Assembly: GCA_009780885.1 (NCBI GenBank) | Contig: WQZF01000005.1 | Span: 1 to 64,000, forward strand | Source of the DNA: Betaproteobacteria bacterium | GTDB taxonomy: Bacteria; Pseudomonadota; Gammaproteobacteria; Burkholderiales; Rhodocyclaceae | DNA: 64,000 bases | Direction of reading: 5' to 3' | Shown here: piece by piece, positions 151 through 60,276 of the stretch | How the letters are laid out: every line of letters starts with the position of its first letter | Position numbering within the stretch: position 1 is the first letter of the stretch | Position numbers and translations under genes: made by a program | Notes under the pieces: generated by a model | What the model was told of the DNA's origin: nothing | The model's input: only the letters and a program-made list of their open reading frames with translations | Databases searched by the model: none

Positions 151-2247
151 TTACTTTCTATTGTTGATTACCGCTTCCGCAACGTTTTTCGGCGCTTCGG
201 AATAGTGCTTGAATTCCATGGAGTAAGTCGCGCGCCCCTGCGTCAGGGAACGCAGTTGCGTAGCATAGCCGAACATTTCCGCCAGCGGGACTTCTGCCTT
301 GACTGCTTTCATCCCTCCGGGAAGATCATCCATCCCCTGCACGATTCCACGGCGCCCTGAAAGGTCGCCCATGACGTTCCCCATGTAGTCTTCCGGTGTT
401 TCGACTTCTACCGCCATCATCGGTTCAAGCAGGGTCGGAGAGGCTTTTCTCATTCCGTCCTTGAATGCGGCAGAAGCCGCCATCCTGAAGGCATTCTCGT
501 TGGAATCGACGTCATGGTAGGAACCATCGAACAGGGTGAATTTGATATCCACCACCGGAAAACCCGCCAGAACACCGCTGGTAATTGCGTCCTGCAGCCC
601 CTTGTCCACTGCCGGGATGTATTCACGGGGAACCGTGCCGCCCTTGATGGCATCGACAAATTCGTAACCCTTGCCCGCCTCGTTCGGCTCGATCTTGAGC
701 CAGACATGCCCATATTGACCGCGTCCGCCCGACTGCTTGACGAATTTTCCTTCCTGTTCGATGGCCTTCTTGATGCACTCGCGATAGGCAACTTGCGGCG
801 CACCGACGTTTGCTTCCACGCTGAATTCCCGCTTCATGCGGTCTACGATGATTTCGAGGTGCAATTCGCCCATGCCCGAAATAATCGTCTGCCCGGATTC
901 CTCGTCCGTGCGCACCCGGAAGGAGGGATCTTCCTGCGCCAGACGGTTCAGCGCGATTCCCATCTTTTCCTGGTCTGCTTTCGTTTTCGGCTCAACCGCC
1001 ACGTGAATCACCGGCTCTGGGAATTCCATTCGTTCCAGAGTCACCACTGCATCGCCGTCGCACAGGGTTTCGCCGGTCGTCACTTCTTTCAATCCGACAC
1101 AAGCGGCAATATCCCCCGCCCGCACTTCCTTGATTTCTTCCCGGTTATTCGCGTGCATCTGCAATATCCGGCCAATCCGTTCCTTGCGGCCCTTGATCGG
1201 GTTATAAACCGAATCGCCGGAATTCAGAACTCCTGAATAAACACGGATAAACGTAAGCTGCCCGACATACGGATCGGTCATCAACTTGAATGCCAGGGCA
1301 GAAAACTTGGCCTCATCCGAGGCTGCACGCGCCTCCTTGGAACCATCTTCCTTTTCTCCTTCAACGGGAGGAATATCGACAGGAGACGGCAGGAAATCGA
1401 TCACCGCGTCCAGCATCCGCTGCACGCCCTTGTTGCGGAAAGCCGTACCGCAAAGCACCGGCTGAATTTCGCAATTGATCGTGCGGAGGCGGATTCCCTT
1501 GACGATCAATTCCTCGGACAATTCTCCCGTCTCGAGATATTCATTCATCAATTCTTCCGAGGCTTCGGCAGCCGCTTCGACCATTTGCTCGCGCCATTGT
1601 GTTGCTTCATCGAGCAAATTGCCCGGGATGTCGTGGTATTCGAACTTCATCCCCTGCGATTTTTCATCCCAGAAAATCGCCCTCATCCTCACCAGATCAA
1701 CCACCCCTTCAAAGGCATCTTCCGCGCCGATGGGAATCACCACCGGCACCGGGTTTGCCTTCAAGCGGGTTTTCATTTGTTCGACAACCTTGAAGAAATT
1801 CGCCCCCTGGCGGTCCATCTTGTTCACAAAGGCAAGGCGCGGCACCCTGTACTTGTTCGCCTGGCGCCAAACCGTTTCCGACTGGGGCTGCACGCCACCC
1901 ACGGCGCAATACACCATGCACGCCCCATCAAGAACGCGCATGGAGCGTTCGACTTCAATCGTGAAATCGACGTGCCCCGGGGTATCGATGATATTGATCC
2001 GATGCTCCGGATAGGTCATTTCCATGCCCTTCCAGAAGCAGGTCGTCGCCGCAGAGGTAATCGTAATTCCCCGTTCCTGCTCCTGCTCCATCCAGTCCAT
2101 GGTCGCTGCTCCGTCATGGACTTCGCCAAGCTTGTGGTTCACCCCCGTGTAAAACAGGATGCGCTCGGTAGTGGTGGTTTTGCCTGCATCGATATGGGCA
2201 CTGATGCCGATATTACGATACCGCTCGATAGGAGTTTTTCGGGCCAC
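151..2247 (-). CDS. fusA: Elongation factor G
   Basis: This 698-residue protein has the full length of bacterial EF-G, the GTPase that drives translocation of tRNA and mRNA. The G1 loop AHIDAGKTT is at residues 17-25, followed by the G3 motif DTPGH and the G4 motif NKMD. The later EF-G domains are present up to the C-terminal region [21 protein letters not shown]. The gene lies between rpsG (46 bp gap) and tuf in the str operon and should be cotranscribed with them. Nothing suggests truncation or the divergent EF-G2 type: the sequence follows the standard housekeeping form throughout. Confidence 0.99.
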
Positions 2248-2293
2248 GGTAATTCTTTCTTCGTCTCTTGAAGAACAAGAAGTTCTTCAGTCA

Positions 2294-2764
2294 TTAAAAA
2301 CGATAATGGGCAAAAGCCTTGTTGGCTTCTGCCATGCGGTGCACCTCGTCGCGCTTCTTGACGGCGCCGCCGCGATTTTCGGAGGCTTCGAGCATTTCCG
2401 CTGCCAGCCGCTGTCCCATTGATTTTTCGGAACGCTTCCGTGCAGACTCGCGCAGCCAGCGCATTGCCAATGCCATGCGCCGCGACGGACGCACCTCAAC
2501 CGGCACCTGATAGTTTGCCCCGCCCACGCGACGGGACTTGACCTCGACCACAGGGCGCACATTGCCGATCGCCAGGGAAAACACTTCCAGGGGATCCTTT
2601 CCGCTCTTCGTGGAAATCTGATCGAAAGCGCCATAAACAATCCGCTCGGCAACGGATTTCTTGCCACTCTGCATGATGGCATTGACAAATTTGGAAACTT
2701 CGACCGACCCGTATTTCGGATCCGGCAGAATATCTCGTTTGGGAACTTCGCGGCGACGCGGCAT
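2294..2764 (-). CDS. rpsG: 30S ribosomal protein S7
   Basis: The 156-residue product begins [20 protein letters not shown] and matches the usual length and sequence of bacterial S7. S7 nucleates assembly of the 30S head by binding 16S rRNA, and contacts mRNA and tRNA near the exit site. It lies 68 bp downstream of rpsL and upstream of fusA in the canonical str-operon order. In Escherichia coli S7 represses its own operon by binding the rpsL-rpsG intercistronic mRNA; the gap here could serve the same purpose, but I did not establish a conserved fold. Confidence 0.98.
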
Positions 2765-2832
2765 AGCAAATTCTCCAGAGTCACACCCCGCCTGAAGAAA
2801 CTCTTTTTCTCAGGCGGGCACAAAAAACAAAA

Positions 2833-3210
2833 TCAGGCGGTTTTGGGACGCTTCGCCCCGTACTTGGAACGGGACTGCTTGCGATCCTTGACTCCCTGGG
2901 TATCCAGCGAGCCACGAACCGTGTGATAACGCACACCGGGCAAATCCTTCACACGACCGCCGCGAATCAACACGACGGAGTGCTCCTGAAGGTTGTGTCC
3001 TTCGCCCCCGATATAGGAGATCACTTCAAACCCGTTGGTCAAACGAACTTTGCACACCTTGCGCAGCGCGGAGTTCGGTTTCTTTGGCGTCGTGGTGTAG
3101 ACCCGCGTGCAGACGCCCCGCTTCTGCGGACACCGCTCCAGCGCAGGAACCTTGCTCTTGGACACCTCAGCCACTCTCGGCTTGCGCACGAGCTGATTAA
3201 TAGTCGGCAT
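2833..3210 (-). CDS. rpsL: 30S ribosomal protein S12
   Basis: A 125-residue S12, starting [12 protein letters not shown]. The [10 protein letters not shown] segment at residues 42-51 has lysine at the classical streptomycin-resistance site, so the sequence is of the sensitive type. S12 sits at the decoding centre and monitors codon-anticodon pairing. It is the first gene of the str operon here. The usual proteobacterial upstream neighbour, rpoC, is absent: the next gene upstream is an L,D-transpeptidase about 500 bp away, so the chromosome appears rearranged at this point. Confidence 0.98.
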
Positions 3211-3238
3211 ATGGTTGTTTACCTTATTTACATGCTAC

Positions 3239-3274
3239 AAAAAACCAAGGCGGAATAATCCGCCTTGGCGTTTT
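3239..3274. terminator. Bidirectional terminator-like hairpin in front of rpsL
   Basis: A perfect 9-bp stem (CCAAGGCGG at 3244-3252 and CCGCCTTGG at 3259-3267, six-base loop) has T5 following it on the minus strand and a T5 run just after the stem on the plus strand. On the minus strand it ends about 29 bases before the rpsL ATG. It may be the retained terminator of an ancestral upstream operon or an attenuator in the rpsL leader; the sequence cannot decide. Confidence 0.6.
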
Positions 3275-3416
3275 TAACCGTAGACGGCATTCAGGACGAA
3301 TGCTCCAGGGGAAAGACTGTCGATTGTATGTCAGCCAATCCTTGCAAGTCAATACGAAGCTGCCAATCCGTTGCGGCAAGTGTCTCATCCCGGCATCAAG
3401 GCAGAACCGGGCTACA

Positions 3417-3495
3417 ATTTTCTAAATTTAATTAAATAATGTTTTATTACCGTAGTGGATATTACACTAAAATTATTTAAACAAATTTAGAAAAT
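3417..3495. repeat. AT-rich palindromic repeat, copy 1 (79 bp)
   Basis: This is one of nine copies in the window of a 78-79-bp element. It starts ATTTTCTAAATTTA, ends AAATTTAGAAAAT, and has a centre related to CTACTGTAGTG. This copy reads TTACCGTAGTGG in the centre. It lies in the gap between rpsL and the L,D-transpeptidase gene and is strongly AT-rich compared with its surroundings. No ORF or consistent target-site duplication is visible. Confidence 0.9.
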
Positions 3496-3580
3496 TATTT
3501 GAACACCTGTCGAGCGCAATCCCTGCCATTCATGGCGGGGCCAGCGAGACATGGCCTAACAGGCGCCGAAGGCGCCCCGC

Positions 3581-3640
3581 ATTGTGTAGGGGCGGGTTTC
3601 AAACCCGCCCCTACACAATCCCCAACCTTCAAGGTTGGGG
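3581..3640. repeat. Two adjacent perfect palindromes (GTAGGGGCGGG type)
   Basis: Positions 3581-3599 and 3601-3619 form a perfect 19-bp inverted repeat around a single base, with the GTAGGGGCGGG / CCCGCCCCTAC core. It is followed immediately by a second perfect palindrome, CCCCAACCTT-C-AAGGTTGGGG, at 3620-3640. Neither is followed by a T-run. They belong to the GTAGGGG class of intergenic repeats seen elsewhere in the window. The rest of the 3275-3705 gap holds no gene that I can support. Confidence 0.85.
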
Positions 3641-3705
3641 TGACTCAAAAAAGAACCTGCCACATGCCTGAAGCCTGGTTCCGCAGAGGCGCGCGGCGCG
3701 GCGGT

Positions 3706-4236
3706 TTATTCAAGACATCCTCGAAAATCGTCCGCATTGTCGATCTCCACCACTGTTCCCACCGAAACGCACTCGAAGAGTTCGATCAAGTCGGAATTCT
3801 TCATGCGGATGCAGCCATGTGACCCCGCTTGTCCCACTACAATATCGTCAGGGCTGCCGTGGATGTAGATGTAGCGGCGCATCGTGTCCACCGTTCGTTG
3901 CGTACCGCAGTCTCGCTTCAAATCCCGGTTGAATCCCCATTCGCAGCCTCGCAGCCAGAGAATGCGCGTCAGTATCCAGTCGCGTTCCGGGAAGGCGTTT
4001 CCGAGTTCCGGGGTGTAGATTTCGCCGGTCGGGCGGCGGCGCACGAAGACGGTATTCACGGGCGCTCCGCTGCCGATCCTGGCGCGAATGATATGCTTGC
4101 CGCGTGGCGTGCAATAACTGCCGGATTGTTCGCCGGGCCCGTTGGCCGCAGTGGAAACGGGATAGCGGCAGAGCGGAATATCGCGCTCGTCGAGCAGCGT
4201 CAGGATTTGGCGGGCAAGCGAGATATGAATTCTCAT
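3706..4236 (-). CDS. L,D-transpeptidase (YkuD domain)
   Basis: The product (176 residues from the ATG at 4236) carries the YkuD catalytic signature HGSPDD followed by SHGCIRM, with the nucleophilic Cys at residue 142 and both conserved histidines. The family cross-links peptidoglycan at diaminopimelate or attaches lipoproteins to it. An upstream in-frame TTG at 4308 would extend the protein by 24 residues, but the added segment is unconvincing, so the ATG is preferred. No signal peptide or membrane segment is visible, which is unusual for a periplasmic enzyme; either export is non-classical or the true start lies elsewhere. It stands alone and divergently from relA. Confidence 0.85.
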   Translation of the reverse strand: MRIHISLARQILTLLDERDIPLCRYPVSTAANGPGEQSGSYCTPRGKHIIRARIGSGAPVNTVFVRRRPTGEIYTPELGNAFPERDWILTRILWLRGCEWGFNRDLKRDCGTQRTVDTMRRYIYIHGSPDDIVVGQAGSHGCIRMKNSDLIELFECVSVGTVVEIDNADDFRGCLE

Positions 4237-4368
4237 GGATTTCGCAGCGGCAGGAAGAAGCGAAGGAAGTCTGTAGCGGCTTTGGCTCAGGCTCCCGGCG
4301 AGTTTCAAATCATAGGCTAACTGGAATCAGAGAGCGCCGCAACGGCGCGGGAAGTGTTGGTCAGAATC

Positions 4369-6591
4369 ATGGTATCGGTTGTTCATTCGGTTGCGGCGCA
4401 AAGCGATCCCGAGCATTCGCTGCAAACCCTGTGCGAAGGCGTCTCCGAGGCGGAAGCCGAAGCCTTGCGCGAAGCGGCCGGCTTCGCGCGGCAGGCTTAT
4501 GCCGACCATTATCTCGGCAGCGGCGAAGGCGTCTGGCGCCATGCGCTCGGAATGGCGCTGATTCTGGTGGGCCTCAAACTCGACGCCAACAGCCGTCTGG
4601 CAGCCTTGCTGTTTGCGCTGCCGACCTTCGACGAAAACAGCCTGGACCGCGCCAGGGAACGTTTCGGCGCGGGAGTGACGCATCTGGTGGACGGCATCAC
4701 GCGGCTTTCCCGGCTGCGCCCGATCAAGCCGGGTTTCGTTGCGCCGTCGATGGAACGCGGAATCGACAATCCGCAGGAATTGAAAGCGCAGGTGGAAGTA
4801 TTGCGCAAGATGCTGCTGGCAATGGTCGAGGACATCCGGGTCGTCGTCCTGCGCCTGGCATCGCGAACACAGACCTTGCGTTTCTATGCCGAAAGCGGAG
4901 ATCCGCTGCGCACGCAGGTCGCGCGCGAAACGCTCGAACTCTATTCGCCACTGGCAAACCGGCTCGGCATCTGGGAACTGAAATGGGAACTGGAAGACCT
5001 CTCCTTCCGTTTCCTGCACCCCGACATCTATCGCCGCCTCGCCAAGGATCTCGATGAAAAGCGCAGTGAGCGCGAGCTGTTCATCGCCACGGCGATCGAG
5101 CGCGTGAAGCACGAACTGAAGCTCTCCGGTATCGGCAATGCCGAGGTATACGGACGGCCCAAGCATATCTACAGCATCTGGAACAAGATGCGCAAAAAGG
5201 ATCTCGATTTTTCCGAGGTCTACGACATCCGCGCGTTGCGCATCATCGTCGACGACATCAAAGGCTGCTACACCGCACTGGGGATCGTGCACAACCTGTG
5301 GACGCCGATTCCGAAGGAATTCGACGACTACATCGCACATCCGAAAAGCAACGACTACCGTTCGCTGCATACTGCGGTGCGCTGCACTGATGGCCGCAGC
5401 ATGGAAATCCAGATACGCACCTGGGAAATGCACCGCCATGCCGAACTCGGCGTCGCCGCGCACTGGCGCTACAAGGAAGGCAGCACGCGCGAGCCGGAAG
5501 ACAACTACGATCAAAAAATCGCGCGCCTGCGGCAGATTTTGACCTGGAAGGAAGAAGTCGCCGACGCTTCGGACTGGGTACGGCATTACCGGCAGGCGGC
5601 GCTCGACGAAACCATTTACGTCATGACGCCGCAGGGGCGCGTCGTCGACCTGCCCTACGGCGCGACGCCGGTCGATTTCGCCTATCGCGTACACACCGAC
5701 CTCGGCCATCGCTGCCGGGGCGCCAAGGTCAACGGAGCGCTGGTGCCGCTCAATACCCTGCTGGAAACGGGGCAGCGCGTCGAAATCGTCGCCGCGCGCG
5801 AAGGCGGCCCCTCGCGCGACTGGCTCAACCCGAATCTCGGCTACCTGATCAGCCACCGCAGCCGCGCCAAGGTACGCGCCTGGTTTGCCGCGCAGGCGAC
5901 GGAAACGACCCTGGCAGAAGGGCGCGCAGTTATCCACCGCGAACTCCAACGCCTCGGCCAGACCGGGATGAAGATCGAGGAACTGGCGGAAAAACTCGGT
6001 TTTCCCAAGCTTGAGGCCCTCTTTCTTTCTGCCGGACGCAACGAACTCAATCTGCGCCAACTGCAAAACGTCGTGCGCGGAGTGCCGGAGACCCACGCGG
6101 AAAGCGAATTGCCGCTGCCGCGCCGCGCCACGGCGGAGTCCGAGAAGGGCGACCAGGGAATTCTCGTCGTCGGCATCGGCAAACTCATGTCGCAACTGGC
6201 GCGCTGCTGCAAACCCGCGCCGCCGGAACCGATCCAGGGATTCGTCACGCGCGGCAAGGGCATTTCGATCCATCGCGCCGATTGCTCCAACTTTCAGCAT
6301 CTGGCCGCGCTGCACCCGGAGCGGGTGATCGAAACCGCATGGGGCCGGGAAACGGAAGGAAGCTTTCCTGTCGACATCCGCCTCGAAGCCTCCGACCGCC
6401 AGGGGCTGCTGCGCGACATCTCGGACATCTTCATGCGCGAAAAACTCAACGTCACCGCCGTCAATACCCAATCGCGGCAGGACAAGGCGTACATGAGTTT
6501 CACCATCGAAATCAGCGGCCTCAAACAGCTCGACCAGATTCTTCGCCAACTGCGCGAAGTCTCCGGCGTGCTCACCGTTGCCAGACGCTGA
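4369..6591 (+). CDS. relA: RelA-type (p)ppGpp synthetase
   Basis: A 740-residue RelA/SpoT-family protein that makes (p)ppGpp from ATP and GTP/GDP in the stringent response. In the N-terminal hydrolase domain the catalytic HD pair is replaced by a LLFALPTFD segment, as in monofunctional RelA. The synthetase domain contains KEFDDYIA, the acidic EXDD signature of RelA rather than the RXKD of bifunctional SpoT. A TGS domain (from DETIYVMTPQGRVVDLPYG), a Cys-containing zinc-finger-like domain (LARCCKPAPPEP...HRADCSNF) and a C-terminal ACT domain follow. A GTG five codons upstream (4354) is an alternative start. It is followed after 24 bp by a phosphatase gene on the same strand. Confidence 0.96.
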   Translation: MVSVVHSVAAQSDPEHSLQTLCEGVSEAEAEALREAAGFARQAYADHYLGSGEGVWRHALGMALILVGLKLDANSRLAALLFALPTFDENSLDRARERFGAGVTHLVDGITRLSRLRPIKPGFVAPSMERGIDNPQELKAQVEVLRKMLLAMVEDIRVVVLRLASRTQTLRFYAESGDPLRTQVARETLELYSPLANRLGIWELKWELEDLSFRFLHPDIYRRLAKDLDEKRSERELFIATAIERVKHELKLSGIGNAEVYGRPKHIYSIWNKMRKKDLDFSEVYDIRALRIIVDDIKGCYTALGIVHNLWTPIPKEFDDYIAHPKSNDYRSLHTAVRCTDGRSMEIQIRTWEMHRHAELGVAAHWRYKEGSTREPEDNYDQKIARLRQILTWKEEVADASDWVRHYRQAALDETIYVMTPQGRVVDLPYGATPVDFAYRVHTDLGHRCRGAKVNGALVPLNTLLETGQRVEIVAAREGGPSRDWLNPNLGYLISHRSRAKVRAWFAAQATETTLAEGRAVIHRELQRLGQTGMKIEELAEKLGFPKLEALFLSAGRNELNLRQLQNVVRGVPETHAESELPLPRRATAESEKGDQGILVVGIGKLMSQLARCCKPAPPEPIQGFVTRGKGISIHRADCSNFQHLAALHPERVIETAWGRETEGSFPVDIRLEASDRQGLLRDISDIFMREKLNVTAVNTQSRQDKAYMSFTIEISGLKQLDQILRQLREVSGVLTVARR

Positions 6592-7449: not shown

Positions 7450-8013
7450 ATGTACGAATTTCTCGTTTCAATAGGCATCGTCGCGCTGGCTGAAATCGGC
7501 GACAAGACGCAACTGCTGGCCTTCGTGCTGGCGGCGCGCTTCAGGAAAACACGGCCCATCGTGCTGGGCATCCTGTGCGCCACCCTGCTGAATCACGGCC
7601 TGGCCGGAGCCGTCGGCGCGCTGGCAGCCTGGCTCATCGACGCCGGGATCCTGCGCTGGCTGCTGGGCCTCTCCTTCCTCGCCATGGCGGTATGGATCCT
7701 CGTGCCGGATTCCATCGACGAGGACGAGGAAACCGTGACGACACGTCATGGCGTGTTCGTTACGACTTTCATCTGCTTCTTCCTCGCCGAAATGGGCGAC
7801 AAGACCCAGATCGCCACCGTGGCGCTGGTAGCCCAATTCAGCACCCCCTTCCTGGTCGTGGCCGGCACGACCCTGGGAATGCTCCTCGCCGACCTTCCGG
7901 CGGTTTTCGTCGGCGAGCGCCTCGGCGAAAAACTTCCCCTCAAGGCAATCCGCATCGTAGCGGCGCTGCTCTTCGCCGCGCTTGGCGTGGCGGCGTTTTT
8001 TGTCGGGACTTAG
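7450..8013 (+). CDS. GDT1/TMEM165-family (UPF0016) cation exporter
   Basis: This 187-residue membrane protein has two copies of the family signature E-x-G-D-K-T: AEIGDKTQLL near residue 15 and AEMGDKTQIA near residue 114. They sit in two homologous three-helix halves separated by an acidic loop (DSIDEDEETV). The family exports Mn2+ or Ca2+ from the cytosol, and bacterial members protect against Mn2+ toxicity; the ion here is inferred. The ATG at 7450 is chosen because the upstream in-frame extension lies inside an intergenic repeat. No yybP-ykoY manganese riboswitch is apparent in the short leader. Confidence 0.92.
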   Translation: MYEFLVSIGIVALAEIGDKTQLLAFVLAARFRKTRPIVLGILCATLLNHGLAGAVGALAAWLIDAGILRWLLGLSFLAMAVWILVPDSIDEDEETVTTRHGVFVTTFICFFLAEMGDKTQIATVALVAQFSTPFLVVAGTTLGMLLADLPAVFVGERLGEKLPLKAIRIVAALLFAALGVAAFFVGT

Positions 8014-8065
8014 GAGTGTTTGGAGGCATGTGGCGAAACCAAACGACTGGAAAAGGAGAAACAAA

Positions 8066-9232
8066 GTGTCGCAGGACTTTGAGGCAGTGCAGCGCGCGGC
8101 GGAACAGGGGGATGCGAAAGCCCAATACAAGCTCGGATTGATGTATGACAAAGGTCGGGGTGTAACGCAGAACTATGCCGAAGCCGCAAAGTGGTTTCGC
8201 AAGGCGGCAGAACAGGGGGATGCGGCTGCCCAACATAACCTTGCATGGATGTACGAGAAAGGTCTGGGCGTAGCGCAGAACTATGCCGAAGCCGCAAAGT
8301 GGTACCAAAAGGCAGCGGAGCAAGGACACTGCGATGCCCAATACAACCTTGGAAATCTGTATGCCAATGGTCAGGGCGTATCGCAGAACTATGCGGAGGC
8401 CATGGACTGGTACACACAAGCTGCGGAACAGGGAGATGCAGCCGCAAAAACCAGCATTGGGGTTTTATACGCCGAAGGTCAGGGTGTAGCGCAGGATTAT
8501 GCCGAGGCTATGAAGTGGTACGCACAAGCAGCAGAACAGGAAGATGCGGATGCTCAATTCAATCTTGGCGTGATGTACGAACATGGTCAGAGCGTAGCCA
8601 AGGATGATGTTGAGGCTGTGAAATGGTACGAATTGGCGGCAGAACAGGGACATGTTAAAGCCCTGTTCAATCTTGGCGGAATGTACGATGAAGGTAGGGG
8701 TGTAGCGCAGGATTTTGTAGAAGCCGTGAAGTGGTACACGCAAGCGGCAGAACAAGGGGATGCGGATGCTCAAACCAGCCTTGGCGTGATGTATTCCGAA
8801 GGTCTGGGCGCAACACAGAATTTTGCCGAAGCCATGAATTGGTACACGCAAGCTGCGGAGCAGGGAAATGCGACGGCAAAAAACAACATTGGGGTTATGT
8901 ACGCCGAGGGTCAGGGTGTAGCACAGAATTATGCCGAGGCCATGAAGTGGTATACACAAGCAGCAGAACAGGGAGATGCAACCGCCCAAAGCAACATTGG
9001 GTTTATGTACGCAAAGGGACAGAGCGTAGCGCAAAACCATGCCGAAGCTGCGAAGTGGTATCAAAAGGCTGCGGAGCAAGGATACAGCGATGCCCAATAC
9101 AATCTTGGAGTGCTGTACGCCAATGGTCAGGGCGTGGCGCAGAATAATGCCGAGGCCGTAGCGTGGTACACAAAGGCGGCGGAACAAGGGCACACGGATG
9201 CACTGGAAGCCCTCATCTCCATGAAAAAGTAG
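8066..9232 (+). CDS. Sel1-repeat (TPR-like) protein
   Basis: A 388-residue protein built almost entirely of ten 36-residue Sel1-like repeats of the form AEQGDA.AQ.NLG.MY..GQGVAQNYAEA..WY..A, plus a partial eleventh. There is no signal peptide. The GTG at 8066 is chosen because AAGGAG lies seven bases upstream; the open frame extends to 7982, but that part overlaps the preceding gene. Sel1 arrays form alpha-helical solenoids that scaffold protein interactions. The partner is unknown and the neighbours give no clue. The DNA is a 108-bp tandem array with highly similar units, so recombination between units could change its length. Confidence 0.92.
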   Translation: MSQDFEAVQRAAEQGDAKAQYKLGLMYDKGRGVTQNYAEAAKWFRKAAEQGDAAAQHNLAWMYEKGLGVAQNYAEAAKWYQKAAEQGHCDAQYNLGNLYANGQGVSQNYAEAMDWYTQAAEQGDAAAKTSIGVLYAEGQGVAQDYAEAMKWYAQAAEQEDADAQFNLGVMYEHGQSVAKDDVEAVKWYELAAEQGHVKALFNLGGMYDEGRGVAQDFVEAVKWYTQAAEQGDADAQTSLGVMYSEGLGATQNFAEAMNWYTQAAEQGNATAKNNIGVMYAEGQGVAQNYAEAMKWYTQAAEQGDATAQSNIGFMYAKGQSVAQNHAEAAKWYQKAAEQGYSDAQYNLGVLYANGQGVAQNNAEAVAWYTKAAEQGHTDALEALISMKK

Positions 9233-51751: not shown

Positions 51752-54700
51752 TCACTCGATTTCCATCAGCGTCGCATCGGCGAAAAGGAGCGCGCCGCGT
51801 ACCGGGCGGCCGGGGAAAACGGCTTCCACGGCGCGGCAGTAGGCGGCGAGTTGGCGCCGGTATTGCGGCAGGAAAGCGTCGGAGTTGCCGCTTTTGTAGT
51901 CGAGAACCCAAAAGCCTTCTTCGCGTTCGACCAGTCTGTCGATGCGGCGCAACGCGCCGTTTTCGTCGCAGAGTTCGGCCTCGTTCCAGGCGCGGCGGTA
52001 TTGTTCGGGGTTGAAGAAGCGCGCCAGGTGCGGCGCGGCAAGGAGGCGTTCGGCGACGGGCAGGGCGCGGCGGATTTCTTCGGCGCTGATGCCCCGCGCC
52101 TGCCGCCAGTCTTCGTCGATGGCGCCGCTTTCGGCGCGCTGTTCGAGCAGGGCATGAAGCACGATGCCAAAACGCGCGGCGGGAGTGGGTGGAACGGGTG
52201 GCGCGGATAGGGGTAGCAGCAGGAGCGGCGGCGGCGCGGAGGTCTGCACCGTGGGGAAGGCGGGCGCGGGCGCTGTTTTGGGTTCGCTTGCCGCCTTATA
52301 CGCCGGAATTGCCGGAGCTTCTTTCGGCAACGGCAGCGGCAAATCGCCGAAAACGAGCGCCGGTTCGGAGAAGCCGCTTTCCGGCCAGCGCAGCGGCAGC
52401 GTCTCTTCCTGCGCCTTCAGGCGTTCGAGCGCGGCGCAGAGGCGGAAGTAATGCGTTTCCTGCTTGATGTTCTTGCCCGGTTTTACGCCGCTGGCGATGA
52501 AGATTTGCCGGGCGCGGGTGATCGCGACATAGAGGAGGTTGAGTTCTTCCCGCGCCGCCGCTTCGGCTTCGGCCTCGAAGATCGGCTGCCGGCTCGTGCC
52601 GCGATGTTCTTTCTTGCCGACGAAGGAGAAATGCGCCGGCGCTTCGTCTCCGGGCTGCCAATCGACGAGGATATTCCAGGACTTGTCGGATTGCGGCGGG
52701 GTGTTGGCGTCCAGCAGCCAGACGAGGGGCGCTTCCAGCCCCTTTGCGCCGTGGATGGTCATGATGCGGACGCGGTCGCCGCCCGGTTCCGCCACTTCTA
52801 TCGTTCCGGCTTCTTCCGTCTCGTCGGAGGAGGCGTCCTCGCGTTCGATCTGGCCTTCGTCCGGCGCTTCCCTTGAATCGCCGCGCGAGAAGCGGCGCAA
52901 GGCGGCGATGAAGCGCGGCAGGCCGGGATAGCGGCCAGCGTCCAGATCGAGCGCGAAGAGGAGCAGGGCGCGCAGGTTGGCAAGCGCCGCGTCGGCCAGC
53001 GAGGGCGGAGCCGCGTGGCGGTAACGTTCCAGCACTTCGCCCTGATGATAGATACGGTCGAGCAGATCGTGCGCCGGCAAGCGGGGCGCGTCTTCGATCC
53101 AGACGCCGAGCAGGCGGCGGGCGCGTGAGAGATTTGGAGAGAGGGTCGGACCCGCTTTCGATTCATCCGCCATCGCCATCAGCCTGTCCCACCAGCATCC
53201 GCCCACTTCGGTGCGCCGCGCAAGCAGGAGCAGATCCTCGTCGGAACACGCGAAGATGGGCGATTTGAGGGCTTGGGCCAGATTCAGGTCTGCTTGCGGA
53301 GTGGAGAGAAATTCGAGCAGCGCGACGATGTCCTGCGCTTCCTGCGTCGCCAGAAGACCGCCGCGCGAGGCGGCGCTGAAGGGAATTCCGGCGGCGGCCA
53401 GGGCGCGTTCGTAAAAACGCATTTGGGTGCGGCGGCGGGCCAGGATCAGGATATCGCCGTAGCGCAGCGGGCGCTCGGTCCGGTCAGCATCGCGGATGCG
53501 GCAATGTCCGACCAGCGCGGCAATGCGTCCGGCAAGCAGCGCGGCTTCGGATTCGCGGCGGCGGTCGTGGACTTCTTCTTCGGGCGTCGTCAGCGGATCG
53601 CGCCAGCCCGCCGTTTCTTCAGCGGCCTCTTCCTTCGCCTCGCCAGCGCAGAGCGGCAGCAACTCGATGCGTCCGGGCAGGTTTTCCGCCAGCGAGGATT
53701 GCGGCGGAAAGGGAGCGAAGCCCGGCTCGTGCGAAAAGAGTTCGTTGACGAGTTCAACGATCTTCGGCGCATTGCGCCGCGTCGCGCTTTGTTCGAGCGG
53801 CACGGCGTCCAGCCGCGCACACAGGAAAGCGGAAGCGGCGCTGAAAAGGCGCGGATCGGCGCGGCGGAAACGATAGATCGACTGCTTCGGATCGCCGACG
53901 AGAAAGACCGCCGGAGGCGCGGACTCGCCGTAGGCGTCGAGCCAGGCCAGCAGGATTTGCCACTGGAACGGGTTGGTATCCTGGAATTCGTCGAGCAGCA
54001 CATGGCGGTAGCGGGCATCGAGCCGCGCCTGCATGAACGCGGCGTTTTCCTCGTCGCGCAGGAGTTGCAGGGTGCGCCATTCGCCGTCGACAAAGTCGAT
54101 CAGCCGCCGCTCGCTTTTGTAGGCTTCCAGATGATCCAGAAAGGCGCGGTAGAGCATCGAGGCATCGTAGTTGAAAGCCGCAATCTCTTCCTCCCGGATC
54201 GCTTCCAGACATTCGAGCATGCGCGAGGAAAGGCGCTCGTGGAGTGCAAGGAAATGCGCGATTTCCAGTCCGGCGGCGGCGAGGCGTTCCCTGGGCTTTT
54301 TTTTGTCCTCGCGTATGCGCGGGGTGCCGGCATCCGTCAACAATATGGAGGCCAGCGCGTCGAATCGTTCTCTCCGGGACTCTTCCGCATCTTCCTCCGC
54401 CAACACCGCCGCAAGCGTGGCGGCCAGCTTCTGATCGGTCGAAGTGCCCGCCGCGAGATATTCACGATAGCCCCGGAAATCCTCCGGCCACCCCGGAACG
54501 AAAAAGGCGGCCAGCGCCACGCCCGATTGCGGCGGATCCGGGATCGGCGAGAAATGCGCCGATGAAAAGGCCAGCCACTCCGAACGACGCGCCAGCCCAC
54601 GCTGGATCAAAGCGCGTACTCCGGAAAGCTTGGCAAGCCTCAAAAGGCGAAGACAGGCGGCGCGCACTTCGGGTGAAAGCGCAGCCTCATCGCCCGCCGG

Positions 54701-55189
54701 ATCGGCGGCGGCCTGCAACTTTGCCGCGAAGCCCTGCCACAATTCCTCGAAACGCTCCGTGGCGCTTTCTTCCAGCACGGTTCCCGCCAGATTGGCCGAC
54801 AGCGGCGCGACGGCGGCCAACTGCTGAAACCAGCCGTCAAAGGTATGAACGCTCAAACCGGGCCGCGCCGTCAGGACGCGCTCGAACAGAAGGCGGGCGC
54901 GGGCGAGGTTTTCCGCGTCCGCCCGAACCCCGCGCTCTTCCAGAAAGGCGAGGGCTTCCTGTTCCGGCGCAGTCGCCAGGAAACGCAGCCCATCGAGAAC
55001 GCGCGTCCGGATTTCGCCCGCCGCGCGGCGCGTGAAGGTGATCGCCAGAATCGCCCCCGGCGCGACGCCGGAGAGCAGCAGCCGCAGCACGCGCGAAGCG
55101 AGCAACCAGGTCTTCCCGCTCCCGGCGCAAGCTGAAACGACGACGCTACGCGAAGGATCGAGCGCGCGGGCGGAGAGATCGCGGCTCAT
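51752..55189 (-). CDS. addA: AddA-type helicase-nuclease (RecB-like)
   Basis: This 1145-residue protein from the ATG at 55189 is a UvrD/RecB-type helicase. Walker A CAGSGKT is at 21-27, ITFTRRAAGEIRTRV follows as motif Ia, and the helicase motifs LLDEFQDTNPFQW and VGDPKQSIYRFRRADPR are clear. The C-terminal PD-(D/E)XK nuclease has IDRLVEREEGFWVLDYKSGN. With AddB it resects double-strand breaks for recombination and degrades linear phage DNA. Normally addB and addA are adjacent; here a ~1.9-kb insertion separates them. The start codon overlaps the stop codon of a truncated antitoxin frame (ATGA). Confidence 0.93.
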   Translation of the reverse strand: MSRDLSARALDPSRSVVVSACAGSGKTWLLASRVLRLLLSGVAPGAILAITFTRRAAGEIRTRVLDGLRFLATAPEQEALAFLEERGVRADAENLARARLLFERVLTARPGLSVHTFDGWFQQLAAVAPLSANLAGTVLEESATERFEELWQGFAAKLQAAADPAGDEAALSPEVRAACLRLLRLAKLSGVRALIQRGLARRSEWLAFSSAHFSPIPDPPQSGVALAAFFVPGWPEDFRGYREYLAAGTSTDQKLAATLAAVLAEEDAEESRRERFDALASILLTDAGTPRIREDKKKPRERLAAAGLEIAHFLALHERLSSRMLECLEAIREEEIAAFNYDASMLYRAFLDHLEAYKSERRLIDFVDGEWRTLQLLRDEENAAFMQARLDARYRHVLLDEFQDTNPFQWQILLAWLDAYGESAPPAVFLVGDPKQSIYRFRRADPRLFSAASAFLCARLDAVPLEQSATRRNAPKIVELVNELFSHEPGFAPFPPQSSLAENLPGRIELLPLCAGEAKEEAAEETAGWRDPLTTPEEEVHDRRRESEAALLAGRIAALVGHCRIRDADRTERPLRYGDILILARRRTQMRFYERALAAAGIPFSAASRGGLLATQEAQDIVALLEFLSTPQADLNLAQALKSPIFACSDEDLLLLARRTEVGGCWWDRLMAMADESKAGPTLSPNLSRARRLLGVWIEDAPRLPAHDLLDRIYHQGEVLERYRHAAPPSLADAALANLRALLLFALDLDAGRYPGLPRFIAALRRFSRGDSREAPDEGQIEREDASSDETEEAGTIEVAEPGGDRVRIMTIHGAKGLEAPLVWLLDANTPPQSDKSWNILVDWQPGDEAPAHFSFVGKKEHRGTSRQPIFEAEAEAAAREELNLLYVAITRARQIFIASGVKPGKNIKQETHYFRLCAALERLKAQEETLPLRWPESGFSEPALVFGDLPLPLPKEAPAIPAYKAASEPKTAPAPAFPTVQTSAPPPLLLLPLSAPPVPPTPAARFGIVLHALLEQRAESGAIDEDWRQARGISAEEIRRALPVAERLLAAPHLARFFNPEQYRRAWNEAELCDENGALRRIDRLVEREEGFWVLDYKSGNSDAFLPQYRRQLAAYCRAVEAVFPGRPVRGALLFADATLMEIE

Positions 55190-55404
55190 GCCTGATCCCA
55201 CGGCGCTTTCAATGCAAAGAGGCGTTCAAGGCCGGAATTGGATGCTGGAGGCGCATCGAGCAAATCGAGAAATTGCTGGAATTTGTCGGCATCGAGTGTG
55301 AAAAGGGGGTGATCATGCACGGCTACATGCGCGCACTCGCAGGCGGCTTCGAGCATGAAGCCGGAACGGTTTTTGCCCAACAGGCTGGCAGCGTGGTCGA
55401 TCAT
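55186..55404 (-). pseudogene. Truncated DUF1778 (TacA-like) antitoxin
   Basis: From an ATG at 55404 the frame gives MIDHAASLLGKNRSGFMLEA, then HPLFTLDADKFQQFLDLLDAPPASNSGLERLFALKAPWDQA. This matches the helical and C-terminal parts of DUF1778 antitoxins (partners of GNAT toxins). The N-terminal beta-strand of the ribbon-helix-helix domain is missing; the upstream frame (to 55449) is unrelated sequence close to the brnA-like gene. No GNAT toxin gene follows: the next gene is addA, overlapping by 4 bp. It is most likely a remnant that now serves, at most, as a leader cistron for addA. Confidence 0.7.
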
Positions 55405-55429
55405 ATACACAAATCCCCGTGCGGCAGAC

Positions 55430-55732
55430 CTACAACGCGAAGCGTTCACGCAAAATGAGGTTTACGCGAGTCTGCCAGCCATCGCCAGTTGCGCGCAAAA
55501 CGGCCAACACATCGGGGTCGAGCCGTAACTTTACCGCTACTTTCGCACTTGCCTTCGTGCTTCCGGGAGGGCGCCCGCGCTTGCGCGCCGCGATGTTTTC
55601 CGGGGTGTGTACGGCGGCAAACTCGCCACGCTTGGCTTGCGCCAACGATTCGCGCAGCCCCGGCAGCGTTTCTCCCGCATCCGCTTCAATGGCGCTGGCG
55701 AGCTTTTCCACATCAATGTTTTTCAGCTTCAC
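55430..55732 (-). CDS. BrnA-like antitoxin
   Basis: A 100-residue protein starting at a GTG inside the 3' end of the toxin gene (20-bp overlap). The C-terminal half, PENIAARKRGRPPGSTKASAKVAVKLRLDPDVLAVLRATGDGWQTRVNLILRERF, is the BrnA-type ribbon-helix-helix DNA-binding domain with its GWQTRVN motif. The N-terminal half is helical and probably neutralises the toxin. It pairs with the RelE-like toxin gene upstream rather than with a BrnT toxin, and the toxin-first order is as in higBA. Confidence 0.85.
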   Translation of the reverse strand: MKLKNIDVEKLASAIEADAGETLPGLRESLAQAKRGEFAAVHTPENIAARKRGRPPGSTKASAKVAVKLRLDPDVLAVLRATGDGWQTRVNLILRERFAL

Positions 55733-56027
55733 GTTTGATTCTCCTCACGGCCTTGTTGGGCAGATTCGAGCGTTCGGCCTTGATGTATACGGCAAGCAAC
55801 ACGATCAAGCCATCGCCCAACTCGTTGAAATAAATCACGCGAGCGCCGCCGCGCTTGCCGCGACCGGACACTGCCCAGCGTACCTTGCGCACCCCTGCCG
55901 CTTGTGGAATGACATCGCCCGCCAGGGGATGGGCTGCAATGAAGTCGATAAATTCTTCCCGATCCACATCCGTCCAGATTTTGGACGCCTGGACGAGAAA
56001 TTCGGGCGTTTCGACGACAGTGTACAT
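55713..56027 (-). CDS. RelE/HigB2-like toxin
   Basis: A 104-residue protein with the RelE-superfamily pattern of ribosome-dependent mRNA interferases: a helical N-terminus (TPEFLVQASKIWTDVDREEFIDFIAAHP), then GDVIPQAAGVRKVRWAVSGRGKRGGARVIYFNELGDGLIVLLAVYIKAERSNL. Basic residues in the RKVRW...RGKRGG strand are typical. It precedes and overlaps the BrnA-like antitoxin. Just upstream is GTACAATTAAAATATGTAC (56022-56040), an imperfect palindrome overlapping the start that could be the operator. Confidence 0.87.
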   Translation of the reverse strand: MYTVVETPEFLVQASKIWTDVDREEFIDFIAAHPLAGDVIPQAAGVRKVRWAVSGRGKRGGARVIYFNELGDGLIVLLAVYIKAERSNLPNKAVRRIKREAEKH

Positions 56028-56163
56028 ATTTTAATTGTACCCCCAACAAATCTGTTGTCCAGCCCACGTAAGTCGGATAAGTGTCGCAATCCGACCTGCG
56101 TGCTAACATTTCAATGCTTGTAGTAGTCCTTTGTTTCAACCGTTAGATTTTTGGGGACGTTCC

Positions 56164-56964
56164 ATGGAGAGGTCTTGGAAAGAAGCGATAAAACGAGTTC
56201 TTCGAGAGTTCGATTTGCCGTTACATTACACGGAAATTTCGGAGCAGATACTTTCTCGTGGCTATTATGAAACTGATGGGGCAACGCCTGCCGCAACGGT
56301 CAATGCACAACTCGCAACATCCATAAAATATGACGGTGAACAGTCGCCGTTTATGCGAGTCGGGAAGGGCGTTTTCGCGTTGAAGAGTGCAACACAAACC
56401 ACGCCAATACTCGCACGAAAGTCGAAGGAAACAGTGTTGGCCTCGTCCTCTCCAGATATTGAAAGTACAGATTCCATCGTCCGCTCCTTTGGAATGTATT
56501 GGCAGAGAGATCTTGTCGTCTGGCGCAACGCCCCAAAACTCTTCGGAAAACAACAAGCCACATCCAAACCAATCGATTTTGGAAAGCAAAAAGGCATTTA
56601 CATTCTCTATGACCACCATACCGTGGTTTATGTCGGGCGCTCCATTGATCGTCCGCTCGGAAAACGCCTCTCTGAGCACACTGCTGATCGTTTGGGCGGT
56701 CGCTGGAATCGGTTTTCTTGGTTTGGGCTACTGGAGGCAACTGATGACGGTGGGTTGGAAGAAGCTCCTTTCAACAACTCACTTGCAAGTGTTATTGCCA
56801 CATTGGAGGCATTGCTCATCGAAGCGTTGGAGCCGCCGCAAAACAGAAGGCGCGGTGATGACTTTGCTATTGAGTACATTCAAGACATTGACCCAGAATT
56901 GCGAGAGCGAGAAATTCAAAATACTTTGCGCTCCATCGAGCAAAAGATGCGCGGCGGGTCGTAA
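56164..56964 (+). CDS. HARE-HTH / GIY-YIG nuclease
   Basis: A 266-residue protein with two recognisable parts. Residues 1-75 (MERSWKEAIKRVLREF, LHYTEISEQILSRGY, FMRVGKGVFAL) form a HARE-HTH domain, a winged helix found in restriction enzymes and chromatin proteins. Residues 144-225 are a GIY-YIG nuclease: GIYILY, VVYVGR, R168 in GKRLSEH, and a late Glu in TLEALLIEAL. Between them FGMYWQRDLVVW is a conserved-looking linker. Codon usage is AT-richer than in the neighbours, and the gene is on the opposite strand to addAB, within their split. It is probably a defence or mobile-DNA nuclease; no methyltransferase partner is present. Confidence 0.85.
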   Translation: MERSWKEAIKRVLREFDLPLHYTEISEQILSRGYYETDGATPAATVNAQLATSIKYDGEQSPFMRVGKGVFALKSATQTTPILARKSKETVLASSSPDIESTDSIVRSFGMYWQRDLVVWRNAPKLFGKQQATSKPIDFGKQKGIYILYDHHTVVYVGRSIDRPLGKRLSEHTADRLGGRWNRFSWFGLLEATDDGGLEEAPFNNSLASVIATLEALLIEALEPPQNRRRGDDFAIEYIQDIDPELREREIQNTLRSIEQKMRGGS

Positions 56965-57048
56965 AAAAATCTAGCTATTCACTCTAACCGGTTCTTCCTG
57001 CAACGCAGCTAAATTCCGGCGCTAGGCGCCGTTGCCTTATTGAGGGGG

Positions 57049-57126
57049 TTTTTCTAAATTACTGTAATAATTCTTTGCTAAAAACCACTACAGTAGCGAA
57101 ACATTATTTAAGTAAATTTAGAAAAT
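57049..57126. repeat. AT-rich palindromic repeat, copy 9 (78 bp, inverted)
   Basis: Starts TTTTTCTAAATTACTGTAAT and ends AAGTAAATTTAGAAAAT, with centre CACTACAGTAGCGAAACATT. It lies between the nuclease gene and the convergent addB, 9 bp from the addB stop, marking the edge of the insertion. Confidence 0.92.
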
Positions 57127-57135
57127 TCTAAAAAA

Positions 57136-59928
57136 TCAAACATTCCCGCGCCGCGCCCAGGGCACGCGACACAGGCCGTGTATCTCGCAGTAGGCGCATA
57201 TTGTGTCCACGCCGTGCGCCGGAAGGTTTGCGCCGGCGTGGATGCGCGAGAAGAGCGCGGAGAAATGCTGCAACAAGGGCGCTTCCGAAGCTTCTGCGTT
57301 CTCCGGCGTCAGGCTTGCCGCGACGGGCTGGACTTTGGTTTCGTCGAGCGCGAGGTAGGCCGCCTGTTCCACCTTGCCGTGCATCAGCGCGTACAGCGGC
57401 AATTGCAGGTCCTCGGCCTTTTTCAGCGCAGATGCCGATTTCGTTTTGTAGTCGAACAGGGCGCAACCTCCGGTGTCGTTCTCGTCGACGCGGTCGATGC
57501 GTCCGTGAATTTCGAGCGCGCCGCCGTCTTCGAGGGGCAGGAGGCATGCCGCCTTGACTTCCGCCTGATGCCAGCGCCAGCCGGCGGCTTCGTTTTCTCT
57601 CTGCCATTCGAGGTAGGCAGGAAGACACGCCTGCCAGCGCAAGCGCCAGCCGGCGACGAAGAAATCCTCGGCTTCGGCTTGCGCGAAGACTTCGTTCCCG
57701 ATGGCCTCCAGCGCCTCTGCCGCCGCCTCGGGAGAAAGGGCTGTGATCTGCGGATGGCGGCGGTGGAAGATTTCGAGGATGCGATGCACAAGGGTGCCGT
57801 AATCCTTTTTGCCGAATGTTTGCTCGATTTCTTCCATTTCGCCCAGACGCAGGATATAGCGGGCAAAAAAGCGGTACGGGCAGCTCATGAGCGTGCTCAG
57901 CGCGGCGACCGGCAGGCGCTGCGGAAAGTCCTGCGGGAGCAGTGACGGCGCGGGAGCATGGACGGAGGAAAGGGAATCGTCCCGATCCCTGGAGAGCGTG
58001 GCGGCGCTTTCGGCTTTCAGTGTTTTGGCGGCTTCCGGCCAGGCCAGATCATGCAGGGCCGCGAGCAGGTCGAGCGGCGGCGCGAGCGGGTTGGCTTCCC
58101 CTTTCTGTTCCAGGCACCAGGTGACCAGCACACGGGGCACGGTGGACAGGAGGGATTCGAGATCGCGCAGCAGCGCCGCCTCCCGCGTTTCCCGCGTCGG
58201 CAGGCCGAGATCGCGCCGTACCGCCTGATTGAAAAAGACGCTGGAGGAAGAAAGCGAGAGCGAGGCGGCACCGCCGCCGATCAGCACCGCCGCGTCGAAG
58301 CGGCGCAAGCGGGCCGCCGAAAGAGGCAGCATCACGACGGGGCTTCCAATCCGGGATTCGTGGAAATTCGCGTTTTCCAGTTCGCGGTCGAGCCAGGCCC
58401 GCCAGGCGGAAAAGGAGAAAGGACGAGAGGAAGGACTGCCCGCGCCCATGTCGGCGGAGAGTTCTTCCCGGCGCGTTCCCAGGAGGTCGAGCAGCGCCGC
58501 GCCAGCGGCGTCTGCCGCCAGGGTGTCCTGCGCGCCGATCGCTTCCAGCGCCTTCTCCAGACGCTCCAGCCAGCGCGCCAGCGGCGCCGGGGCAGCGCCC
58601 AGAAGATGAAGGGCGGCGTCGATCCGGTCGAGCAGTTCCGCCGAGACCTTTTCCTCATTCCGCAACGCGCGCCGGAAAAAGGCCATTCCGCGACGCCCGC
58701 CAGCGTTCCGTGGATCGCGGAGCGCCCGCTCCAGCGCGGGGATGGCGGAAGGAGTTTTTTCCGCTACCGCAGGAAGGAGAAAGGGGGATTTGAGGAGATC
58801 GAGCAGGTTTTCTCCCGTCACGCCGCGCGCGGCGTTTCCGGCGGCGCATTCGAGCAGGGCATCGACCAGCGCCGCCGCGCGCGAGGTCGACAATTTCCAG
58901 CCGGTTTCGTCGTCGACCAGTAGCTGTTCGCGTTCCAGCAAGGCGCGCACCCGGCGCGCGGAAAGCCGGTCGGCGGCGATCAGCGCGATGCGCTGCCGGC
59001 CCTCGCGCAACCAGGCAAGGGTCTGCGCCACGATCGTCTGCGCTTCGGCCTCGCGCCCCGAAGCGGGGGCAAGCCTGAAGCATTCCTCAAGCGGGCTTTG
59101 CGTCAGGGTGGCGGAGAGCTTGCGCGCGCGGTCGATGAGCGGGATCTGCGCCTCTTCCGTCTCCGGTGTTTCTTCCGGCCAGGCCGCCGACAGCAGGCGC
59201 GCAAGCGGCGTCCGTTGCGCGCGGCGCGGCGCGGGATAAAACATCAGGACATTCTGGCGCGCGGCGCAGCGTTCAAAAAAATCCATTTCGGCGCGGCTTA
59301 AGGCTTCCTCGGGCGGGGCCGCGAGAAGAACGGCACGCGGCGCGGAAATCGACGCCGACAGCCGCGCCAGCCGCAAGCGGTACAGCGAGGGGCGATCCGG
59401 CTGCCCGCAGGCGGACAGGGCATGCCACATCTCGTGCACCAGCCGCGCTTCAAAAAAGAGGGGCTTCGCGGCGGTCAGTTCATAGGCGCGTTGCAGTTGT
59501 TCCAGCAGGGTTTCAAGGTCGGCGGGCAGCGTTACCGCCGCCGAGGAAAGCTCGTCGGCCAGCGCCGCCAGTTCCGCCGCGACGTTCCACAAGGCGGCAG
59601 GGTCGAACCAGCCGCGCGCGGCCAGCGTATCGTAGAGCAACAGCAGCCGCGCGCTTTCCGGCTGCGCGGCAGGCAGCGAAGCAAAGTCGGGCAACGGGGT
59701 GTTGAAGGCCCAGCGGGAGAGCGTATCGAAACGCGGCAGCAGCATCGGCCGGCGCGCGGCGGCGACCAGCGCGGCGCGGCATTCGCCCGCCAGAGAAAGC
59801 GAGGGGACGAAAAAGAGTTGCGCCGAAAAATCGGCGGAGGCTGCCGCTCCCGCGCGTTCGAGAAAGCGCTCCGCCAGCGCGTGGAAAAATCCGTCGCCGG
59901 CGGCAAGGGCATGTTCTTCGATCTGCAT
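57136..59928 (-). CDS. addB: AddB-type PD-(D/E)XK nuclease
   Basis: This 930-residue protein, counted from the ATG at 59928, is AddB, the partner of AddA. The inactive helicase-like N-terminus (AQLFFVPSLSLAGECRAAL...PRFDTLSRW) is followed by a C-terminal nuclease with SCPYRFFARYILRLGEMEE, GTLVHRILEIFH, GRIDRVDENDTGGCALFDYKT. A 4Fe-4S cluster is formed by that first Cys and CAYCEIHGLC. The open frame extends to 60078; a start at 60006 is also possible. It is convergent with the GIY-YIG gene and separated from addA by the insertion. Confidence 0.92.
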   Translation of the reverse strand: MQIEEHALAAGDGFFHALAERFLERAGAAASADFSAQLFFVPSLSLAGECRAALVAAARRPMLLPRFDTLSRWAFNTPLPDFASLPAAQPESARLLLLYDTLAARGWFDPAALWNVAAELAALADELSSAAVTLPADLETLLEQLQRAYELTAAKPLFFEARLVHEMWHALSACGQPDRPSLYRLRLARLSASISAPRAVLLAAPPEEALSRAEMDFFERCAARQNVLMFYPAPRRAQRTPLARLLSAAWPEETPETEEAQIPLIDRARKLSATLTQSPLEECFRLAPASGREAEAQTIVAQTLAWLREGRQRIALIAADRLSARRVRALLEREQLLVDDETGWKLSTSRAAALVDALLECAAGNAARGVTGENLLDLLKSPFLLPAVAEKTPSAIPALERALRDPRNAGGRRGMAFFRRALRNEEKVSAELLDRIDAALHLLGAAPAPLARWLERLEKALEAIGAQDTLAADAAGAALLDLLGTRREELSADMGAGSPSSRPFSFSAWRAWLDRELENANFHESRIGSPVVMLPLSAARLRRFDAAVLIGGGAASLSLSSSSVFFNQAVRRDLGLPTRETREAALLRDLESLLSTVPRVLVTWCLEQKGEANPLAPPLDLLAALHDLAWPEAAKTLKAESAATLSRDRDDSLSSVHAPAPSLLPQDFPQRLPVAALSTLMSCPYRFFARYILRLGEMEEIEQTFGKKDYGTLVHRILEIFHRRHPQITALSPEAAAEALEAIGNEVFAQAEAEDFFVAGWRLRWQACLPAYLEWQRENEAAGWRWHQAEVKAACLLPLEDGGALEIHGRIDRVDENDTGGCALFDYKTKSASALKKAEDLQLPLYALMHGKVEQAAYLALDETKVQPVAASLTPENAEASEAPLLQHFSALFSRIHAGANLPAHGVDTICAYCEIHGLCRVPWARRGNV

Positions 59929-60276
59929 CGTTTCAGCACTCCTGGGAGAAAGGCTGCCCAAAGGGCAGGCAACGAAATATAACCGGGCGCCGGAAGCGTA
60001 GTCCATTCGTGGCGAGGAAGCCACAATCTTCAAAGTTTTGCATGGGCGCTTCCTGTTTTGGGCTTGCTCACTTCCCATGGCCGGGGTTTTTCGCTAGCAT
60101 TCTTCCCTGCCGTGCGAAAAAGAATCCTGACTTCAGGGGGCAAATCCAGGAACGCGCGGAAAAAGCGTCTTGACCCTGTGTTTACAATTTTTCCCCACGA
60201 TACATCTCCCATCCCCCGCAACAGGCGATATTCCTGAAAAAGGGAACTTTCCTGCCATCACAATGAGGTTTTTCCA
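59929..60276. other. Divergent intergenic region between addB and trxA
   Basis: This gap must contain promoters for addB (minus) and trxA (plus). If addB starts at 60006 or 60078 it is shorter. I see no gene, strong repeat or clear hairpin. A TTGACC at about 60169 and GATACAT near 60197 are promoter-like, but their spacing is poor. Confidence 0.5.

Follow-up and report, generated by a model that had tools for sequence, protein, structure and literature searches.

A HARE-HTH–GIY-YIG nuclease family carried on integron gene cassettes is a candidate for defense against invading DNA

Introduction

According to the available part of PMC11037411, the wH-GIY-YIG enzymes Ahi29725I and Apa233I from Acholeplasma are 6mA-dependent type IV endonucleases. 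They resemble the family described here in having an N-terminal winged-helix-type domain and a C-terminal GIY-YIG domain, in being encoded by a single gene, and in that methyltransferase (MTase) genes are rare beside them. They differ in the sensor, which is a DpnI-type wH in those enzymes and a HARE-HTH by Pfam in ours, a distinction drawn from the descriptions; that part of the source describes no association with integrons. Of the characterized enzymes, we take these wH-GIY-YIG 6mA nucleases, whose DNA-binding domain is of another type, to be functionally closest to the family. The HARE-HTH–REase fusions of Dnd phosphorothioation clusters (PMC10853773) also join HARE-HTH to a nuclease and are proposed to discriminate modified DNA, but they have the REase fold and are tied to Dnd clusters, whereas the present family has no recurrent neighbor. 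T4 EndoII (DenA), Hpy188I, and Eco29kI are GIY-YIG nucleases found among the structural matches of our domain. They lack HARE-HTH; EndoII comes from phage, and Hpy188I and Eco29kI are type II restriction enzymes.

Integrons have been reported to be anti-phage libraries that include shortened type II and IV systems (PMC12409362, in the sections available), and integron-borne anti-phage cassettes are the subject of Darracq 2025, Kieffer 2025, and Getz 2025, as cited in the accessible text of PMC12444791. The likeness to the present family lies in small defense genes with attC sites that are shuffled by IntI. The HARE-HTH–GIY-YIG architecture is not named for such cassettes in the open literature, as represented by the available portions of PMC12409362 and PMC12444791. 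In an Aeromonas class 4-like integron, orf6 is a cassette gene for a GIY-YIG protein; PMC10609294 has no mention of HARE, and we liken the two by description alone. Fusions of HARE-HTH to nucleases are already known in general, as are wH-GIY-YIG type IV enzymes, defense cassettes, and one Aeromonas GIY-YIG cassette. We found no report in the open literature of a cassette family with the HARE-HTH–GIY-YIG architecture, and subscription papers, including the 2025 Science screens, may mention it.

Here, we describe a family that turns this orphan domain pair into a testable defense candidate, namely a single gene of about 800 bp that is under strong selection and borne on integrons beside defense cassettes. 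It also offers a handle on what prokaryotic HARE-HTH domains recognize, which bears on the eukaryotic homologues ASXL and HB1.

Results and discussion

The gene encodes a predicted two-domain nuclease

The window is the whole stretch of DNA that was analyzed, the first 64,000 nucleotides of contig WQZF01000005.1 from a Betaproteobacteria bacterium (GCA_009780885.1). It contains one HARE-HTH–GIY-YIG gene (Table 1), which is present as a single copy in the source genome. A TTG located 11 codons 5' of the ATG is also in the open frame.

Table 1. Coordinates of the nuclease gene, its domains, its putative cassette ends, and the surrounding genes in the window
Feature	Position	Strand	Remarks
HARE-HTH–GIY-YIG nuclease gene	56164..56964	+	266 aa, ATG start; 80 homologous loci
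HARE-HTH winged-helix domain	56170..56388	+	residues 3-75; PF05066 E=1.5e-18; winged-helix/RNA polymerase delta fold matches
Disordered linker	56398..56466	+	residues 79-101; pLDDT <50; poorly conserved in the consensus
GIY-YIG nuclease region	56473..56961	+	residues 104-266, core 144-227; residue conservation, model pLDDT 87.2
GTTAGAT integron core site (GTTRRRY)	56142..56148	+	cassette 5' edge, 22 nt before the start codon
Degenerate attC-like site, cassette 3' end	56970..57026	+	starts 6 nt after the stop codon; covariance model match
addA	51752-55201	-	
addB	57136-60078	-	
Insert separating addB from addA	55202..57135	.	carries the cassette and a toxin-antitoxin pair; 1,934 bp
BrnA-like antitoxin	55430-55732	-	PF14384 2.8e-18; inside the insert, outside the cassette
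RelE-like toxin	55713-56027	-	PF06296 5.9e-5, under cut-off; inside the insert, outside the cassette

The original prediction placed a HARE-HTH domain at residues 1-75 and a GIY-YIG nuclease at residues 144-225, and both assignments held up. PF05066 matched the window protein at 67.4 bits (Pfam cut-off 25.9) and was present in all 64 rows scanned. In the fold searches Foldseek returned no match at E<=0.001; with the N-terminus its top match was RNA polymerase delta, and further winged-helix proteins were also found. The GIY-YIG domain of the window protein lies under the Pfam cut-off (PF20815, 0.043), and among the relatives PF20815 matched 26 of 64 rows and PF01541 7 of 64. In the alignment, 63-64 of 64 rows retain Y146 (of GIY), Y156 (of YVG), R168, H172, E215, and N227. 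The AlphaFold model has a pLDDT of 81.6 for the whole protein and 87.2 for residues 104-266, and with the latter domain it retrieves the UvrC GIY-YIG domain, T4 EndoII, Hpy188I, Eco29kI, and I-TevI, all at low Z (2-3.7). Structure prediction, proposed earlier as a check of the active site, thus brought GIY-YIG structures among the matches, but because Z is low the assignment is carried mainly by the motifs and, on the structural side, by rank together with motif.

The ratio dN/dS was 0.02-0.12 for pairs with dS <0.9, which indicates strong purifying selection and therefore that the protein has been maintained functional. As judged from the alignment, the predicted catalytic residue set is intact in a protein under strong purifying selection, and we predict with good confidence that it is an active endonuclease.

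A search of PDB sequences with the single protein found nothing, and the only PDB matches of a profile search, to C-type lectins, were taken as spurious. No PADLOC or NCBIfam defense model matches the window protein, so that the models used missed this candidate; a match to UzuA (PADLOC, 0.048) was regarded as noise. Phage proteins annotated as EndoII match residues 105-189 at 37%. An origin as a plasmid or phage gene was considered and rejected, there being one distant full-length plasmid match, and phage or viral records matching the GIY-YIG part only, and partially.

The family is found on integron gene cassettes

One genome scan yielded 80 homologous loci with about 40-87% identity. In many of these the stop codon is followed by AAAA and then TCTAAC...hairpin...GTTAG, which is a typical attC; many other homologues have no recognizable attC. 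We trained a covariance model on nine homologue attC sites, with the window excluded, and ran it on 1.03 Mb, leaving the nine training sites out of the evidence since they match by construction. The model finds the downstream attC of L044 and L057. In L006, L009, L023, L054, and L057 it finds upstream attC sites terminating at the GTTAGAT of the nuclease itself. Whole attC arrays are present in L006, L009, L023, L044, and L057. In L057, intI is followed by an attI-like site (GTTAGGC), by cassette 1 and then the nuclease, each with its own attC, and by more attCs. The nuclease is therefore the second cassette behind an integron integrase, and this integrase is 58% identical to that of the source genome.

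We hold it as nearly certain that the HARE-HTH–GIY-YIG family is an integron gene cassette, which integron integrases would capture and shuffle between integrons. The gene had earlier been called stand-alone, with no transposon nearby. This is correct for its immediate surroundings, but it is wrong for a family of integron cassettes and overlooks that the window gene is flanked by cassette ends. It had also been asked whether homologues lie in a known mobile or restriction system that explains their role; the integron explains the spread of the gene and the absence of fixed neighbors, but not the biochemical target.

The source genome has an integron integrase of its own (341 bits, cut-off 265), split by contig ends into two fragments with 24 identical residues in common, and attC sites on contigs C58 and C95. 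Genomes that carry the nuclease show no enrichment for IntI (24/50 versus 144/369, p=0.28), so IntI in a host is in itself no evidence for mobility. One intI match, from genome G133, was once placed beside the nuclease of L036 and was then rejected, as it is not in that locus and the stretch encodes a thiolase-like protein.

The window copy is probably a lone cassette between addB and addA

DNA similarity between the window and its homologues extends beyond the coding region, from ~56141 to ~56973 in many of the 80 loci. The upstream alignment shows GTTAGAT followed by TTTTT(C/T)GGAGG-like sequence, and 23 of the 80 loci have GTTRRRY at -32..-10, compared with 1.0% in the background; the p of 6e-27 overstates the significance because the loci share ancestry. 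On the 3' side the window attC reaches 26.3 bits (E=0.0011 in 1.03 Mb; 2.3e-6 in 2.2 kb) with the covariance model, from whose training set it was excluded. Its core boxes are TCTAGC/GCTAGG, not TCTAAC/GTTAGG, and it folds weakly, about like shuffles (z of -0.2 and -1.1 on the two strands). A possible upstream attC for this copy (56102-56147, 8-9 bits) was not significant and was dropped. That the window copy is an integron cassette is very likely. Given the altered core boxes and the lack of a clear upstream attC, it looks like a lone cassette, inserted outside an array, with a decaying attC.

The distance between addB and addA is -44 to +175 bp in 14 relatives, where the two genes overlap or lie directly next to each other, and 1,934 bp in the window; there is no significant attC at the relatives' junction. 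The nuclease gene was noted before to be AT-richer than its surroundings, and its GC content is indeed ~47-50% versus 62-70%. Integrase insertion at non-canonical attG sites has been described (Loot 2024, as cited in the available parts of PMC12444791 and PMC12901181), and the addB/addA junction of the cassette probably arose by such an off-target, attG-like event. The cassette would then have become fixed between addB and addA, its attC decaying since, and the window copy would be a case of cassette fixation away from an integron.

Its position between the two genes could also suggest an accessory factor of the AddAB repair machinery. This is scarcely credible and is largely refuted by the neighborhood data: the gene lies on the strand opposite to addBA, addB and addA are contiguous without it in the 14 relatives, and addAB does not recur beside the nuclease at the homologous loci.

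The rest of the insert holds the BrnA-like and RelE-like pair, oriented opposite to the cassette. An 87-aa ORF at 55186-55449 (-) overlaps the addA start. It probably resembles the C-terminal portion of a DUF1778/TacA-type antitoxin that lacks its toxin, so the insert looks like a toxin-antitoxin gene graveyard. A REP-type palindrome, GTCGGAT...ATCCGAC, occupies 56077-56100, between this pair and the edge of the cassette.

Cassette companions suggest a role in defense

In all-against-all clustering of the neighbors at 83 loci, no family besides the nuclease occurred in more than seven loci, and an operon or a partner gene was therefore rejected. The recurrent neighbors were generic regulators, transporters, housekeeping genes, or toxin-antitoxin genes. 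There was no recurrent MTase neighbor across loci, the MTases in the arrays being separate cassettes of differing kinds; the nuclease has no dedicated cognate MTase, as expected of a type IV enzyme. In the L009 array a D12 adenine MTase with a REase, a TIR/ThsB-like protein, and AbiU precede the nuclease. The companion is a C5 MTase in L023 and an N6/N4 MTase in L057. The integron of the source genome (L091, G000:C58, 1767-4956) carries an N6/N4 MTase, a Bpu10I-family REase, and the candidate defense gene PDC-S19 (DUF3644) as cassettes.

Because of these defense-like companions, the use of integrons as anti-phage libraries, and the precedent of the wH-GIY-YIG 6mA enzymes, we read the protein as an anti-invader nuclease. 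A role in anti-invader defense is likely. We give about even chances to the fuller reading, in which a one-gene integron cassette encodes a compact anti-invader endonuclease that is probably modification-dependent (type IV). HARE-HTH would dock on DNA that bears a base modification or another foreign feature, the tethered GIY-YIG domain would cut nearby by way of the flexible linker, and the single gene would restrict modified phage or plasmid DNA in a type IV-like manner. A single-gene modification-dependent restriction enzyme was the possibility raised originally. It stands as the leading idea, supported by cassette transfer, purifying selection, and defense-rich arrays, while its modification dependence is a point we infer and regard as equally balanced.

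The same arrays, rich in defense genes, would suit an integron-borne anti-phage nuclease that is independent of modification. HARE-HTH would then bind DNA generally or sense a structure, an end, or a protein, and GIY-YIG would degrade or nick DNA as a direct or abortive-infection effector. Carriers have many kinds of MTase, even in the same array, so varied host methylation is tolerated, and HARE-HTH also occurs in RNA polymerase delta, the top Foldseek match. However, a nuclease that attacked DNA indiscriminately would be harmful to the cell that carries it, and the neighbor clustering revealed no recurrent antitoxin or immunity partner. We consider this explanation rather unlikely, though it is the one among the alternatives that deserves most weight.

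Free-standing GIY-YIG homing endonucleases promote their own spread. The nuclease could likewise be a selfish, homing-like enzyme that spreads its own cassette instead of defending its host, since GIY-YIG domains are known from homing endonucleases, I-TevI is among the weak structural matches, and the gene is widely spread. Yet the 80 loci have no common insertion site or flanking gene, and integron ends account for the mobility without homing, making such a role very improbable.

MTases in carrier genomes bear on the target

C5 MTases are enriched in carriers (27/50, 54%, versus 52/185, 28%, in the class sample that served as background; p=0.001), a comparison that taxonomy confounds. There are as many as nine C5 MTases in one carrier genome. 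This enrichment may reflect defense-rich genomes and not a functional link. D12 MTases were found in 10/50 carriers versus 61/185 at the preset threshold (p=0.08) and, with a stricter threshold applied post hoc, in 4/50 versus 48/185 (p=0.007), again confounded by taxonomy; we treat this depletion as a lead only.

The enzyme could be a generic type IV endonuclease dependent on 5mC or on Dam methylation (Gm6ATC). In favor of this, C5 MTases are absent from the source genome, carriers have D12 MTases somewhat less often, and the wH-GIY-YIG relatives read Gm6ATC (PMC11037411). Against this, the L009 array itself holds a D12 adenine MTase, and together with the enrichment of C5 MTases in carriers, which disfavors a generic 5mC target, this makes general 5mC or 6mA targeting unlikely, subject to the taxonomic confounding of the MTase comparison; we regard a generic enzyme of this kind as improbable.

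PMC11037411 mentions the view that HARE-HTH senses modified cytosines, so a hypermodified or context-bound cytosine is a possible target. The family may, tentatively and at somewhat less than even chances, form a new integron-borne class of type IV enzymes in which HARE-HTH would read a hypermodified or context-specific phage base and GIY-YIG would cut beside it, in a self-sufficient cassette that has moved across phyla and can settle alone outside integrons.

Distribution and variant copies

In a maximum-likelihood tree, attC-bearing copies are spread across a clade of 48 rows, intermixed with copies that have no recognizable ends. The hosts belong to several phyla; since many loci come from metagenome bins, an individual cross-phylum case may reflect misbinning. 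Among the named strains are Acidithiobacillus sulfuriphilus (L009), Piscinibacter caeni (L044), Giesbergeria anulus (L007), and Sulfurisoma sediminicola (L036). No attC was seen in the distant members from Bacteroidota and Planctomycetota. The Piscinibacter caeni locus (1425-3873) has repeated 124-bp attC sites ~600 bp apart, with the nuclease as the first cassette seen on the contig.

The nuclease is disrupted, by a stop codon or by frameshifts, in L054, L055, L059, L061, and L062. Of these, L054 and L055 belong to a single genome, and the broken L054 copy is still between attC sites. In L049 a second, HARE-less GIY-YIG protein (4250-4744) is encoded just 5' of a full nuclease and is 35% identical to it over residues 104-231. 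A distant homologue in L072 (45%; about 7990-8800) has the inverted pair CGTTAGACGCTGTATAA.../...TTATACAGCGTCTAAC on its two sides, which may mark the termini of a different mobile unit.
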